This document shows, one piece after another, positions 8,922-20,570 of a DNA stretch of 20,570 bases. Location of the stretch: the IMG/VR virus record IMGVR_UViG_3300042923_000529, positions 1-20,570 of that record. One strand, 5' to 3'. How positions within the stretch are numbered: the first letter of the stretch is position 1; the number at the start of each line of letters is the position of its first letter. The notes beneath the pieces were generated by a model. The model saw nothing but the letters and a program-made list of their open reading frames with translations. It was not told the DNA's origin and did no database searches. The position numbers were made by a program, and so were the translations under genes. Source of the stretch: a virus.

Positions 8922-9259
8922 CACATCAGCTCCAATTTGCAATAGTTAACTGTACCGTCCGGATTTCTTGCCTTGGTGCCCTGGTAGATGATCCGCTCTA
9001 CCCCATATACTGTTGCGGTACCCCCGCTTAAGGTTGGTAGATCAGGAGCGATGTCTCCAGGAAATAACGCAATGCCGGTTAGTTGCACCAGTACTTTTTC
9101 TGCTGTTAATTTTGTCTTGGCGGAATCTTGATAATTACACTTTAAATCAAGACTTACGGATTCGATTGGTTCACCATATTTATTAGTTCCCTCCTGCTCG
9201 ATTACAACGTGTATATCAGTCTTACAGAACCTCTTGTCTACTAAACATGGGTATTTCAT
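8921..9259 (-). CDS. Head closure / stopper protein
   Basis: The start is ATG at 9259, which overlaps the upstream stop as TAATG; the run GGGGGG lies six bases upstream. The 112-residue product begins MKYPCLVDKRFCKTDIHVVI. It is predicted beta-rich (VSLDLKCNYQDSAKTKLTAEKVLVQLTGIALFPGDIAPDLPTL, then GGTATVYGVERIIYQGTKARNPDGT). The pattern of a small barrel with a conserved GTKARNPDGTVNYCKLEL end is that of head-closure (stopper) proteins in SPP1-type heads. Its place after the adaptor and before the gp10-like protein supports this. Confidence 0.78.
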   Translation of the reverse strand: MKYPCLVDKRFCKTDIHVVIEQEGTNKYGEPIESVSLDLKCNYQDSAKTKLTAEKVLVQLTGIALFPGDIAPDLPTLSGGTATVYGVERIIYQGTKARNPDGTVNYCKLELM

Positions 9260-16569: not shown

Positions 16570-17139
16570 TTAACCACCCCTTAGCTGTGCGATAATGCCG
16601 TCAAGCTTATTCTTTTCTTCATTTAAGTTAGTCAGTTCAATTTTATCCTTAAACATACCTAAATGCCTACCCAGGAGTTCCAAAGCCTTAACCTTATCAC
16701 AGGTAGCTACCTCAATACCGTATTTGCCTTCCTTAATGCCGGCAATGGCTTTCTTCTTATCATCTGGGAGCTTATCAGTTGAAATAACTTCTACTGCTTT
16801 ATAAGTTTTTACCTTGCCGGTATCCGGGTCTATAACATACTTTCCATTAGATATAATCGGCTCGTCTATTACTTTGGCAAAGTCAGTACCTTTAGCAAAA
16901 GCAATGGCTGCCAGCTCATTAAGAACCTTGTCCTGGGTAATTTCTGTTCGTTTTTCCCGGTCCTTTATTCGTTGTTTAATATATTCTGCAACCTTAACAT
17001 TTCTTAACATTCTTGCCCCAGCAGCCGCTGCTGTTTCATCGCTCTTAACTGCTTTATAGACTGCCTTATAAGCCCTGGTGGCATTAAGGTCTATCAAATA
17101 TTCATCTGAAAATAACTTTTGTTTATTTGTTAATGCCAT
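16570..17139 (-). CDS. terS: Terminase small subunit
   Basis: I choose ATG at 17139 (GAGGTG six to seven bases upstream) as start; a longer frame from 17193 uses TTG, runs through a hairpin/T-run, and lacks a ribosome site. The 189-residue product begins MALTNKQKLFSDEYLIDLNA and continues with TRAYKAVYKAV and the helix-turn-helix region typical of the Terminase_2 group (AAAGARMLRNVKVAEYIKQR). The C-terminal part (KALELLGRHLGMFKDKIELTN) is also the normal form for this group. It recognises phage DNA for packaging and activates TerL. It is the first gene of the structural operon after the 430-bp leader. Confidence 0.93.
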   Translation of the reverse strand: MALTNKQKLFSDEYLIDLNATRAYKAVYKAVKSDETAAAAGARMLRNVKVAEYIKQRIKDREKRTEITQDKVLNELAAIAFAKGTDFAKVIDEPIISNGKYVIDPDTGKVKTYKAVEVISTDKLPDDKKKAIAGIKEGKYGIEVATCDKVKALELLGRHLGMFKDKIELTNLNEEKNKLDGIIAQLRGG

Positions 17140-17163
17140 CAGGCTCACCTCACTTTCAGCAAT

Positions 17164-17187
17164 AAAAAAAGAACCAACAATAGGTTC
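17164..17187 (-). terminator. Hairpin and T-tract just before terS (leader terminator or attenuator)
   Basis: On the minus strand GAACC, a 7-base loop (TATTGTT) and GGTTC are followed by seven T residues, ending 24 bases before the terS ATG. The stem is only 5 bp, so termination may be partial. Confidence 0.55.
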
Positions 17188-17275
17188 CAACAATCATGTG
17201 TATAATATTATTTATATTAATTTATCTCTAAGTTTAATTTTTTAATTATCACCTAAAAACAGGAACTAAGGCTAC

Positions 17276-17524: not shown

Positions 17525-17551
17525 AATAAAAAAGCACCCCGAAGGATGCTT
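17525..17551 (-). terminator. Intrinsic terminator of the three-gene cargo cassette
   Basis: On the minus strand the stem AAGCATCC / GGGTGCTT (8 bp, one G-T pair) closes a TTCG tetraloop and is followed by TTTTTTATTG. It lies 18 bases after the stop of the last cassette gene and closes the cassette before the late promoter. Confidence 0.92.
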
Positions 17552-17569
17552 CTACGTTTATATGTATTT

Positions 17570-17953
17570 TTACCTAAGTTTGTCTATAATTGGTTGAATA
17601 CTTTCTCCAAATAACTTTACAGTATTATAAATTAAACTTACATTTTTTATGTTTTGAGGAATTTTCAAAGCAAATTGTTTAATTCTTTCAACTGCAGATA
17701 TTAGTCTTATTTTTTTTGGTTTTTCGTTTTTTAATTGTTCTTGAATTGTATCTATATCATCTAATACCAATTCATTATTTAATCCACTTCCAGATTCGTC
17801 TAATAATTTTCTTAAAGAATCTAACAGTTCATTTATATTTTGCAAATCCTTTCCAGAAATTATAGATGTAACATTACCATCTGCAACATTTAATGCTGTA
17901 GAATTATTATTTCCAATAACATGTTGATTAATATTTACGCTTTTGTTTTCCAT
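17570..17953 (-). CDS. Cargo cassette gene 3: Asn-rich N terminus plus helical tail, unknown function
   Basis: The start is ATG at 17953, with AGGAG six to eight bases upstream; a longer reading from TTG at 18013 lacks a ribosome site. The 127-residue product begins MENKSVNINQHVIGNNNSTALNVADGNVTSIISG: about 35 residues of alternating Asn/Val/Ile that read as short beta strands with turns, of the kind seen in some accessory proteins of bacterial conflict systems. The rest is helical: NINELLDSLRKLLDE, DDIDTIQEQLKNE, RLISAVERIKQFALKIP, YNTVKLFGESIQPIIDKLR. No cysteine, signal peptide or membrane helix is visible. It ends the cassette before a strong terminator. I do not recognise a family; a self-assembling or effector-linked protein is a possibility only. 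Confidence 0.8.
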   Translation of the reverse strand: MENKSVNINQHVIGNNNSTALNVADGNVTSIISGKDLQNINELLDSLRKLLDESGSGLNNELVLDDIDTIQEQLKNEKPKKIRLISAVERIKQFALKIPQNIKNVSLIYNTVKLFGESIQPIIDKLR

Positions 17954-18063
17954 TTTAAGTTCTCCTATATTAAAAATATTGACCTTAAATTGATTCAATT
18001 GTTGAATAGACAAAATATCATCATTTTTTTTACTTGGTTCTCCGAAATCGTTAAAATTACTTT

Positions 18064-18423
18064 TTATGATTTTTTTTTTACATAGTCTTTATAGGTTGGA
18101 TTTATATAATACACTGGATAAATATTATTATAAGAAATTTCTATTTCATCTCCACAAATTTCACAATGAACTTTTTTATTAAATAAATCATCGTAATTAT
18201 CCAAAGTATCTATAATATTTAAATCATCCGAACACCTTATCTCATATCTTAGTTCTATAACTCCATCATTTACTAATTTGGAAAGTTCAATTACTATTAA
18301 GTCTATTGGTATATATAGTTTTCTACTTATAGTTTGAGGATAAAAATAATTAACTCTTGACTTTCTTGCTAAATATTCAATATAGTCTTTTATTTGACAT
18401 AAGTTAATATTTAAATCGGACAT
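18064..18423 (-). CDS. Cargo cassette gene 2: predicted winged-HTH protein with CxxC, unknown function
   Basis: A 119-residue protein starting MSDLNINLCQIKDYIEYLARK, with AGGGGG five bases before the ATG and an 18-base gap to the preceding gene. Residues about 31-60 (TISRKLYIPIDLIVIELSKL, VNDGVIELRYEI) look like a winged helix-turn-helix: an SRKL helix, a turn, a recognition-like helix and a short wing. Residues 87-90 are CEIC, followed by DEIEISYNNIYPVYYINPTY, as in a half zinc knuckle; only this one CxxC pair is present in that region, so metal binding would need a partner or dimer. It might sense or regulate, or be a subunit of a defence complex. I do not recognise the family. The base composition is as AT-rich as its neighbours in the cassette. 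Confidence 0.8.
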   Translation of the reverse strand: MSDLNINLCQIKDYIEYLARKSRVNYFYPQTISRKLYIPIDLIVIELSKLVNDGVIELRYEIRCSDDLNIIDTLDNYDDLFNKKVHCEICGDEIEISYNNIYPVYYINPTYKDYVKKKS

Positions 18424-18441
18424 AATATACCCCCTAACCTA

Positions 18442-19488
18442 TTAAAATATTTTATTTCTAATATATTCAATTACATCTTCCGTAACAGAAGATCTAAAAA
18501 CAATATTATTACTTTTCAATCCAACTTGCATGGTGTATAATATGCCATCAGCATGCGTAGCAAAACTAATATAACTCTTATTTTCGATGATATAATCTTT
18601 CAAAATAGTATATAAAGATTGATCACTCATATCTTTATCACTATTCTTTTTTATACCCATACCCATGCTACCAACACCTGCTAATAGTAAAGCTATAATA
18701 GATAAATCTTCAGTATCATAATTCATACTATCAAGAGATTCTACAAGTTTAACACTATCTTTATCGTGTAGATAATCGTCTATATATTTTATAATGCTAG
18801 CTAATGCACTTTTATCGTCTTCTGTTAATTCTAATGGCTCGCTAGGGATTGCTGTCCAGTTCAAATATCTTCCATTTTCTAAAGAATTTTTAAATGAATT
18901 TATATCTCCAGAATATTTTCTTAAAATACTTACTTCAGTTATATTTACTAGCCCCAGATCTCTAGACACGATATTTTCTATTCGATTGCATTTTGACTCA
19001 GGACATCTTATTTCAATCCAGCAATTATCAATGTCGATTTTAACTATTATGCTTCTAATTTGTTCTTGTCTATATGAATTTATTCCATTTGTTATTGTCT
19101 TATATCCATCTGATATAAAAATTTTAAGTATATATATATTATTATGATTAATTACACATGAAACTGTATCAATCTTATCCGTTCTTGATAAAATACTTAA
19201 ATTATAGCCATGCTCTGGTTTTTGTAGCTTTTCTTTCAATATATCTTTAGTAAAATTATCATCATATCTATATTTATACCATTTAACAGAAACTTGCCCA
19301 GCTAATATTTTATTTGTAATTTTATTATTAACTGTTTCATTAGATTCTAAAATATTAATATTATTAAACAAGTAAACTCTCTCATCTAGATCATCTGGAA
19401 AATTTAAATCAACTAACTTTTTTATTTCATTTACTTCATCCAAAGTTAAATTCATGAAATCTGCCTGTGTATATAAATTTTTATCCAT
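18442..19488 (-). CDS. Cargo cassette gene 1: 348-residue protein of unknown function
   Basis: A 348-residue protein starting MDKNLYTQADFMNLTLDEVN, with GGGGAG five bases before the ATG and a strong own promoter 40 bases upstream. Residues 1-60 are helical and acidic. Residues 95-190 are strand-rich (YNLSILSRTDKIDTVSCVI, NNIYILKIFISDG, RSIIVKIDIDNCWIEIRCPE) and contain WIEIRCPESKC with two cysteines. Residues 225-280 are helical with a Gly-rich end (LAGVGSMGMGIKKNSDKD), and 290-348 form a strand/helix end (YISFATHADGILYTMQVGL). No NTPase, nuclease, TIR, kinase or membrane motif is evident. The absence of known catalytic motifs and the operon with a small wHTH protein and an Asn-rich protein suggest a sensing or effector complex. 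Function is unknown. Confidence 0.85.
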   Translation of the reverse strand: MDKNLYTQADFMNLTLDEVNEIKKLVDLNFPDDLDERVYLFNNINILESNETVNNKITNKILAGQVSVKWYKYRYDDNFTKDILKEKLQKPEHGYNLSILSRTDKIDTVSCVINHNNIYILKIFISDGYKTITNGINSYRQEQIRSIIVKIDIDNCWIEIRCPESKCNRIENIVSRDLGLVNITEVSILRKYSGDINSFKNSLENGRYLNWTAIPSEPLELTEDDKSALASIIKYIDDYLHDKDSVKLVESLDSMNYDTEDLSIIALLLAGVGSMGMGIKKNSDKDMSDQSLYTILKDYIIENKSYISFATHADGILYTMQVGLKSNNIVFRSSVTEDVIEYIRNKIF

Positions 19489-19525: not shown

Positions 19526-19554
19526 ATAATATACCAATTCTAAAAATATGTAAA
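19526..19554 (-). promoter_or_regulatory. Strong sigma-A type promoter of the cargo cassette
   Basis: On the minus strand TTTACA (19554-19549) and TATTAT (19531-19526) are separated by exactly 17 bases in an AT-rich setting, with the cassette start codon about 40 bases downstream. It is independent of the late regulator and suggests expression in the lysogen. Confidence 0.8.
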
Positions 19555-19599: not shown

Positions 19600-19649
19600 A
19601 ATAATAAAACTTAAAAGGCACCCGTACTTTATAATTTCCGAATGCCTTT
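19600..19649 (-). terminator. Intrinsic terminator closing the structured RNA
   Basis: On the minus strand AAAGGCATTCG pairs completely with CGGGTGCCTTT (11 bp with two G-T pairs; 19614-19649) around a 14-base loop, followed by a T-rich tail. It lies upstream of the cassette promoter and isolates the RNA from the cassette. Confidence 0.88.
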
Positions 19650-19925
19650 CAAATATGGGGGTAAAATAATTAATAAAGGCCCTGGGGAGGGAGTGGGCTT
19701 CGCGGATTCGAACCGTTATCAGCTACCTAGGATTGCAATGCTATTTTACCATTAAACTATCAGCCCGTAGATTAACTTGTTGTCGTACAAGTGTTTTCTG
19801 CCTAAACGCTATTTTCTACCGTTTGTAATCTCGTTTGAAATAGTAAGTCAACTATGATTAATCAGCCACCGGGCTTTTACACCCGGAAGCCGTCAGGAGG
19901 TTGAACAATCTGTCCAACTTTCTAG
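19614..19925 (-). ncRNA. Candidate structured phage noncoding RNA with a 3' tRNA-like domain
   Basis: This gene-free stretch between the late regulator and the cassette has a candidate promoter at its 5' side and a strong terminator at its 3' side, a predicted transcript of about 315 nt. Hairpins, read on the plus strand: AGGTTG/CAACTT (19898-19920), ACCGGG-type CCGGG/CCCGG (19869-19886), ATAGT/ACTAT (19840-19855), AAACG/CGTTT (19804-19836), ACTTGT/ACAAGT (19775-19792). They are followed by the tRNA-like element (19694-19766). No open frame covers the region. Its context recalls large phage RNAs such as GOLLD and ROOL, which occur in prophages near tRNAs, but it is clearly shorter, and I cannot assign it to a known class. 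It might also be a decayed tRNA cluster. Confidence 0.6.
19694..19766 (-). tRNA. tRNA-like element, probably atypical or degenerate
   Basis: Read on the minus strand the 73-nt element has GGGCT / AGCCC acceptor pairing (5 bp, then mismatches), the GTTTAATGGTAAAAT D-arm with conserved GG, and the T-loop TTCGAAT with a 3-bp stem CGG/CCG. Bases 8 and 9 (TA) and discriminator A are normal. In contrast the anticodon arm does not fold as a normal 5-bp stem with a 7-base loop in any frame I tried; a candidate GCA anticodon (TTGCAAT) has no matching stem. No CCA is encoded (ACTC follows). So the elbow is conserved but the decoding arm is not, consistent with a tRNA-like structure or a decayed tRNA. 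Confidence 0.5.
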
Positions 19926-19930
19926 CTTAA

Positions 19931-19959
19931 ATGATATCACAGGATAAATTACTTGAAAA
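19931..19959 (-). promoter_or_regulatory. Candidate promoter of the structured RNA
   Basis: On the minus strand TTTTCA (19959-19954) and TATCAT (19936-19931) are 17 bases apart; the start point would be near 19924. The match to the consensus is moderate. The position right after the late regulator would also suit a regulator-dependent promoter. Confidence 0.4.
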
Positions 19960-19983
19960 TAACATCTTTTTATCATATTTATA

Positions 19984-20466
19984 TCAGATAATTTCTATCC
20001 CATCACTTCCAAAAATCCTTATACTTACTGCCTTTGTCACCTCATTAACCCATCTTCTTACCGTTACAGCACTTGTAGTCAATGCTTCAGCTTCTTCCTC
20101 AAACGTAGTTCCTTTTACTAAACAATCATAAAGAGCATCATACTTGTAAGGCATGTCTTTTAGATCATATTCATCTTTCGTAAGAATTAATGCTTTTTCT
20201 ATATGCGATATAACAATTAAACTTCTAAGCTTACTCTTACGAATACTGTTAATATAAACCTCTTCTTCATCAGTATAGGCTTCTAATTGATTAGCTTCTG
20301 AAATTGCTTCTTCAATACTACTTTTAATTTTATTGTAGTTTTTAAGAAGAAGTTTAGTGTTGTGTAAGGCTTTCTTCCTACGTTCCATTTTTTCTTGCTT
20401 CGCATATTCCCTTATAGCTTTTTTAACTGCTTTATCTATCATATCGTCTGCTGTTTGTTTATTCAA
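19984..20466 (-). CDS. Late transcriptional regulator (ArpU/RinA-like)
   Basis: I choose TTG at 20466 as start (GGGGTG five bases upstream); a GTG at 20499 gives 171 residues but without a ribosome site. The 160-residue product begins MNKQTADDMIDKAVKKAIRE, a basic helical region with ERRKKALHNTKLLLKNYN, a middle helical part with SNxLEAYTDEEEVYIN-like segment and RSLIVISHIEKAL, and a C-terminal helix-turn-helix TTFEEEAEALTTSAVTVRRW with VNEVTKAVSIRIFG like sigma region 4. This is the pattern of ArpU/RinA-type regulators that switch on late genes of Gram-positive phages. It is the last gene before the packaging region, the usual position. It would act on the promoter near 17470, and possibly on the RNA promoter. 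Confidence 0.85.
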   Translation of the reverse strand: MNKQTADDMIDKAVKKAIREYAKQEKMERRKKALHNTKLLLKNYNKIKSSIEEAISEANQLEAYTDEEEVYINSIRKSKLRSLIVISHIEKALILTKDEYDLKDMPYKYDALYDCLVKGTTFEEEAEALTTSAVTVRRWVNEVTKAVSIRIFGSDGIEII

Positions 20467-20470
20467 TCTC

Positions 20471-20570
20471 TCACCCCTTATTGTAATGTGTGTATCCACA
20501 GTAGTAATCTACTCTGCCACTCTTATTCTTTTTCTTGTATGTATAATTTCCTCTGGACATATTTAAATTG
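20471..20570 (-). CDS. 3' end of an upstream gene or short peptide gene, coupled to the regulator
   Basis: An open frame enters from the right window edge and ends with TGA at 20471-20473, five bases before the regulator start. Its visible end is NMSRGNYTYKKKNKSGRVDY then YCGYTHYNKG. If the ATG at 20560 is the start it would be a 29-residue basic peptide, but the frame is open upstream to the window edge so it may be part of a longer protein. The stop codon lies within the ribosome site of the regulator, so the two are probably translationally coupled. Confidence 0.5.
   Translation of the reverse strand, partial: NLNMSRGNYTYKKKNKSGRVDYYCGYTHYNKG

Follow-up and report, generated by a model that had tools for sequence, protein, structure and literature searches.

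Layout of the locus on the minus strand

The window, the whole 20,570-nucleotide stretch of viral DNA analysed here, carries its genes and an RNA element all on the minus strand, to which the coordinates below refer. From 19930 to 19603 along that strand, the element comprises a putative promoter, a short hairpin, a CCTCC box, a 30-nt hairpin, a middle domain, a tRNA-like domain and a terminator. A late regulator lies upstream of this leader, and downstream are cargo genes followed by the terminase small subunit (TerS). Between 19488 and 19984 there is no minus-strand open reading frame of at least 60 amino acids, in agreement with the gene-free stretch described in an earlier, sequence-only reading of this DNA. 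Open reading frames, terminators and promoters are mechanical calls, terminators being called by pattern.

The gene directly upstream (19984..20499) encodes a 171-amino-acid phage regulator of PHROG 1558, a family whose function is not annotated; in most relatives this slot holds late transcriptional regulators of PHROG 36 and 248. The promoter-like pair TTTTCA-17-TATCAT, with the TG of an extended −10 (19931..19959), is present as first described. It is a consensus match only, of a kind common by chance (four pairs found against 3.1 in shuffled sequences), and we infer that it is the late promoter, with transcription probably starting near 19924. A first short hairpin, GTTGGACAGATTGTTCAAC (19900..19918), recognised from sequence and fold and variable among relatives, is followed by the pyrimidine box CCTCCT (19895..19900) and then by the core hairpin, CGGCTTCCGGGTGTAAAAGCCCGGTGGCTG (19863..19892), which is conserved, has the loop GUNANA and precedes a conserved ATT. 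Anti-Shine-Dalgarno mimicry by ACCTCCT was considered and rejected, the motif itself being the one point in its favour. The 53-nt middle domain (19802..19854) is identical in sequence to that of the related locus L162. The tRNA-like domain (19694..19766), a weak member of its kind, consists of an acceptor, a D arm, a T arm and an anticodon arm with a 16-nt loop. On its 3′ side lies the C-rich motif CTCCCTCCCCAGGGCC (19678..19693), similar versions of which occur in L158, L162, L169 and L301 and also in L161, which has no tRNA-like domain.

The leader ends in an intrinsic terminator, AAAGGCATTC...GGGTGCCTTTT (19603..19652). Its T-rich tail is as originally reported; the supposed 11-bp stem proved to be imperfect and long-looped (approximately 19652-19611), and it was absent from the output of a stricter scanner accepting loops of 3–8 nt. 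In line with the earlier proposal, the region between late regulator and cargo is predicted to give rise to a separate, structured RNA some 320 nt long whose 3′ domain is tRNA-like. It does not appear to be an isolated RNA, as had also been proposed, and is instead best described as the leader of a late operon.

A separate promoter, TTTACA-17-TATTAT (19526..19554), precedes the cargo genes (17570..19488), which encode proteins of 348, 119 and 147 amino acids. The 348-amino-acid protein belongs to PHROG 38742, a family without annotated function, and the 147-amino-acid protein (17570-18013) matched the C-terminal half of the PADLOC candidate defence model PDC-M14B (E 1.5e-17). A second intrinsic terminator (17530..17553) lies 3′ of the cargo, and a third (17160..17188) ends about 21–31 nt ahead of the TerS ATG (17139), leaving no room for a promoter. 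TerS (Terminase_2; 16570..17139) is the first late structural or packaging gene.

The core hairpin and its relatives

The RNA of this locus is real, apparently unlisted until now, and stands where the late genes begin in phages that infect Lachnospiraceae, a family of gut bacteria. That the element is more than chance is borne out by its relatives and not by the window sequence alone. The hairpins proposed from the letters held up, the conserved one (19892-19863) folding with pair probabilities of about 1 except at one U-U mismatch (−18.6 kcal/mol) and the whole 326-nt RNA being only mildly more stable than shuffled sequences (z −1.9). No Rfam family matched the window at gathering threshold, the 30-nt hairpin included, and ARAGORN found neither a tRNA nor a tmRNA in it, confirming that the RNA is not GOLLD, ROOL, tmRNA or an ordinary tRNA. 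Sub-threshold Rfam matches (c4-a1b1, ohsC, sobemovirus frameshift, snoRNAs) were at chance level and were discarded. BLAST searches of phages and plasmids with the whole element and the hairpin gave no match, one query matching ordinary tRNA-Met-type sequence only, and a search for related loci with the late regulator as query returned nothing. No prior description of the hairpin RNA was found in an open-access library; it may already figure, unnamed, in one of the large lists of candidate RNAs such as that of PMC8040213.

Relatives were found by way of TerS. In these, similarity is confined to the 5′ part of the region between late regulator and TerS, and the tRNA-like domain is absent. A degenerate pattern built from three sequences matched 14 viral contigs and, among genome contigs, three that were real, all of Lachnospiraceae; most genome-contig matches were chance hits to coding DNA. 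A covariance model and a second pattern together gave 124 hits at 102 distinct loci in viral contigs and Lachnospiraceae genomes, counts that include related, and so not independent, sequences. Conservation of the hairpins in related prophages, the test to which the sequence-only reading had exposed its proposal, thus came out in its favour. With the first model (E <=0.01), 28 of 397 genomes matched in Lachnospiraceae (the host family of L175, Cuneatibacter). With the second (0.001), the hairpin was found in 11 of 392 genomes at the level of the order and 5 of 391 at that of the class, and the strong matches of the class-level search fell only in genomes known from the family search. The window hairpin is a full family member at 55.8 bits, scored by a model that had it among its training sequences. 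The genome of Cuneatibacter caecimuris carries two copies, and at L263 (2342-2473, minus strand) two tandem copies stand 85 nt apart and are followed by an odd tRNA-like domain.

The aligned sequences reveal which molecule folds. Across 27 hairpins 97.2% of cells are paired, against at most 53% in slid-partner controls, and changes on both sides occur in 8 of the 12 pairs. Because the first search pattern had fixed part of the hairpin sequence, pairing was retested at the four stem positions that the second pattern did not constrain; these are paired in 92, 98, 96 and 87% of cases, far above column shuffles. Over the whole stem there are 254 G-U wobbles and only 2 A-C, which identifies the folding molecule as RNA of the minus strand rather than a palindrome in the DNA. 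At 86 of 102 loci, compared with 42 in shuffles, a C/T-rich box is present no more than 25 nt upstream of the core hairpin.

This strand bias weighs heavily against an element beside the terminase genes that serves packaging, be it as a site or as an RNA (cos, pac or pRNA-like). Such a function would suit the position ahead of HNH/TerS, the inverted repeat and the very high sequence conservation, and it is nonetheless highly improbable: the pairing is of RNA type, where a cos site would show DNA-level symmetry at the terminase cut site, the hairpin is common to phages with unrelated TerS families, and it lies up to 2.7 kb from TerS with cargo between. Of the functions floated at the outset (a decoy, a packaging RNA or a regulator), a regulator acting in cis on late transcription, through antitermination, is the one favoured, and the evidence speaks against packaging.

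The insert that follows the hairpin often also holds a middle domain with a covarying pseudoknot (19 loci, 93.6% paired), in which double-sided changes number 21 against 5.8 in shuffles. The window copy can be drawn as a pseudoknot of CTATTT/AAATAG and AAACG/CGTTT, a model built on two near-identical sequences, those of the window and L162. Long leader inserts of 300–500 nt occur in L170, L171, L176, L309 and L333, and a sequence block, AACAGCACCGYTACGGCGGTGC, is common to those of L170 and L171. Leaders with long inserts are possibly a larger ornate RNA variant absent from Rfam.

tRNA-like domains as cassettes in the leader

The 73-nt element at 19766-19694 has the tRNA elbow features and non-canonical anticodon arm with which it was first described. 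It has a D stem GTTT/AAAT, GG in the D loop, and an anticodon arm with a 4-bp stem, TAGC/GCTG, and a 16-nt loop; a canonical anticodon arm (5 bp, 7-nt loop, pyrimidine 33) was not found in this domain. The window copy is the weakest of its set, scoring 20.7 bits with the Rfam tRNA model RF00005 (gathering 29, E 0.10), and thermodynamic folding of the full leader did not recover its tRNA shape, a result given no weight in either direction. Only 5 of 7 acceptor positions and 3 of 5 T-stem positions are paired, and this poor pairing means that the copy may have decayed and lost its function; decay of the window copy alone is quite possible. Its close relative L162, with the identical 53-nt middle domain, has a clear tRNA-like domain of 43.4 bits, and the gathering threshold is also reached by L158 (32.8 bits), L169 (41.5), L337 (48.5) and L338 (50.5).

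Among relatives, 32 of 100 hairpins are followed by a T-arm signature, where shuffles give 2.1. About one-third of loci have a tRNA or tRNA-like domain between hairpin and terminator, and about two-thirds have none. The tRNA-like 3′ part stressed in the sequence-only reading is present, but it is by the 5′ hairpin that the family is defined. At L197 (Ile and Asn), L268 (Ile) and L333 (Asn) this position holds ordinary tRNAs, and about 20 domains keep the acceptor and T arm with an anticodon arm unable to decode. Over 20 such non-decoding domains, that of the window among them, pairing in the acceptor and T stems reaches 92.9% of cells, a figure favoured by the partial choice of acceptor strands for best pairing, which affects the T stems much less; slid partners give at most 53%. 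Double-sided changes in these domains number 65, against 18 in shuffles.

Two abnormal anticodon arms recur. A 17-nt loop, TGAGGTGCACCAATAAT, is identical in L204, L301 and L336, where it sits on different 4-bp stems and beside differing acceptors, and the arm GCGCGCGCATAACAGGTA is conserved in L158, L169, L337 and L338. In these four loci the conserved arm (CTGGCGCGCGCATAACAGGTACAG) sits on differing acceptor and T stems. The domain of L336 (~9000-9110, minus strand) lies within a phage tRNA island beside ordinary tRNA-Ile and tRNA-Met, and the 600 nt upstream of the L337 domain yielded no core hairpin. Scanning for TAGTTTAATGGTAAAAT, a string from the D arm, was uninformative, as most of the matches were ordinary phage tRNAs.

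These observations bear on whether the tRNA-like part is a decaying, functionless phage tRNA, a reading compatible with the best explanation of the hairpin. Decay would fit the ordinary tRNAs in the slot of some relatives (L197, L268, L333) and the broken pairs and sub-threshold score of the window copy. Compensatory changes, however, maintain the acceptor and T stems across relatives, and both abnormal arms are conserved while the acceptor differs, so that as a general account decay is possible but somewhat doubtful. Three types of anticodon loop contain a self-complementary 6-8-mer (GCGCGC, GGUGCACC and AUUGCAAU). An exchangeable RNA module with a role of its own, combining tRNA elbow and acceptor with a conserved non-decoding anticodon arm, can be envisaged and is quite unlikely; its palindromic loops could pair two RNA copies, and the leader would be dimerised, or docked on a tRNA-binding host factor, with the 5′ hairpin steering the polymerase.

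Sibling phages with and without the insert share exact flanks, CCGATT/GTTTCATGACACTCTCC when empty and CCGATT/AGAAGACG...TGTTCCGATT/GTTTCATG when filled, and the same is seen at CTGATT/GATTCCTGATATTCTCC. These empty sites demonstrate that the tRNA-like domain comes and goes as a cassette. Precise presence or absence of the RNA cassette at GATT, and the high variability of the cargo between leader terminator and TerS, would also be expected of a recombination linker through which cargo (moron) cassettes are exchanged, with conservation of the hairpin reflecting its role as a shared flank. Such a linker leaves the compensatory changes, the G-U strand bias and the missing late promoter unexplained and is very unlikely. 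The cassettes would be natural tRNA mimics selected for their acceptor-T half and not for decoding, a non-translational use of the tRNA shape directly testable in a cultured host, Cuneatibacter caecimuris.

Probable late transcription through the leader

The genomic context of the relatives is that of late control. The nearest upstream gene is a PHROG 36 transcriptional regulator at 46 of 76 loci, a PHROG 248 transcriptional activator at 14 (a set that may overlap the former) and a member of PHROG 1558, the window type, at 11; at a few loci it encodes a tail collar protein or a DNA methyltransferase. Downstream genes are TerS from several unrelated Pfam/PHROG families or diverse cargo. A second setting, in which the hairpin directly adjoins a tail collar-type gene at its stop codon (one such product ends in YTKK), has no promoter directly in front and cargo and terminators behind, and is seen in L191, L219, L224, L240, L260, L283, L304 and L319.

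Of 100 loci, 85 have a terminator-like structure in the interval +45 to +445, where shuffles give 14.4 and the reverse strand 11. TerS could be recognised at 44 loci. At 38 of these the distance from the end of a terminator to the TerS start codon is 150 nt or less, often 17–45 nt, and at 22 the stretch from hairpin to TerS contains at least two terminators; the three of the window were checked in the sequence. Where the gap after the terminator is at most 160 nt, a promoter score of at least 9/12 was found ahead of 0 of 24 packaging and 17 of 34 cargo genes (Fisher p 1.6e-5), classes that were assigned by eye. Since there is mostly no room for a promoter between terminator and late genes, transcription must pass through the leader. 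Terminators close to TerS, and the lack of promoters between, mean that the late genes are most easily expressed by polymerase arriving from upstream.

This arrangement also weighs against a free-standing trans-acting or ornate phage RNA, in which promoter, RNA and terminator would form one gene and the proximity of late genes would be incidental. The discrete promoter and terminator, the long structured inserts of L170, L171 and L176, which reach about 500 nt, and the covarying pseudoknot of the middle domain all suit such an RNA. Many members, however, consist of hairpin and terminator only (about 100 nt), the terminators mostly leave no promoter room before the late genes, and neither the window nor 25 related loci matched Rfam ROOL or GOLLD at gathering threshold, making this reading unlikely. 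ROOL and GOLLD (PMC12286853) resemble the present RNA as phage structured RNAs near or joined to tRNAs, and differ from it in that it gives no covariance-model match, is much shorter and occupies a late-operon leader.

The element common to all these leaders is the hairpin with its C/T box. The reading preferred here, with a probability of roughly 0.55, is that the locus is a late-operon leader whose nascent hairpin makes the polymerase resistant to terminators, the tRNA-like domain being an optional leader cassette. Polymerase would start at the late promoter and transcribe the hairpin, which would render it terminator-resistant either unaided, like HK022 put, or together with a factor from phage or host, like nut/N and pLS20 conAn. 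The leader, cargo and TerS-proximal terminators would then be passed only by polymerase from the late promoter, and spurious polymerase would stop. More tentatively, the tRNA-like cassette may owe its retention to the acceptor-T half. RNase P and RNase Z cut at acceptor-T domains, and the simplest use of this half would be as a cleavage site for both enzymes that trims or separates the leader. Leaky terminators could yield read-through without any special element, and the loci with the hairpin at a tail collar-type stop codon and no promoter directly ahead are a counterpoint to antitermination. If the antitermination reading is right, it would bring RNA-linked processive antitermination to the late genes of phages of a dominant gut family, whose late control is little studied. 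It would also explain how cargo, candidate defence genes included, can sit behind terminators inside a late operon without silencing the structural genes.

Known systems offer several likenesses to the core hairpin as a putative nut-, put- or conAn2-like antitermination element. The lambda nut sites, on which N acts, resemble it in having a C/T box ahead of a small hairpin whose loop is GNNA-like, and pR′-tR′, the site of Q action, shares the order late promoter, short leader, terminator and late genes. In contrast to lambda, the pyrimidine box bears only a loose similarity to the boxA consensus, boxA-like sequences being found in few loci (e.g. L192, L196), no N-like protein or N/Q homologue was identified at these loci, and many of the regulators are sigma-region-4-like. 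HK022 put RNA, two stem-loops of about 70 nt in the early operons of a lambdoid phage, is a precedent for RNA-based antitermination (PMC9378689). By description, both are short structured RNAs near a phage promoter with no dedicated antiterminator gene seen, and the present RNA would likewise act in cis and cause polymerase to ignore terminators; it differs in having one invariant hairpin with a C/T box in the late operon of Clostridia phages.

RNA-based processive antitermination elements (put, conAn2, EAR) are characteristically structured RNAs in the leaders of operons rich in terminators, as is found here, and intrinsic terminators inside an operon are considered a good indication of a conAn-type system (PMC8955417). 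The conAn system of pLS20, composed of the ConAn1 protein and conAn2 RNA, serves the conjugation operon of Bacillus plasmids, and the likeness drawn here is one of description. As that system is described (PMC8955417), the two have in common a Gram-positive mobile element, an RNA near the promoter and a long operon with many internal terminators in which subsets of genes have their own internal promoter.
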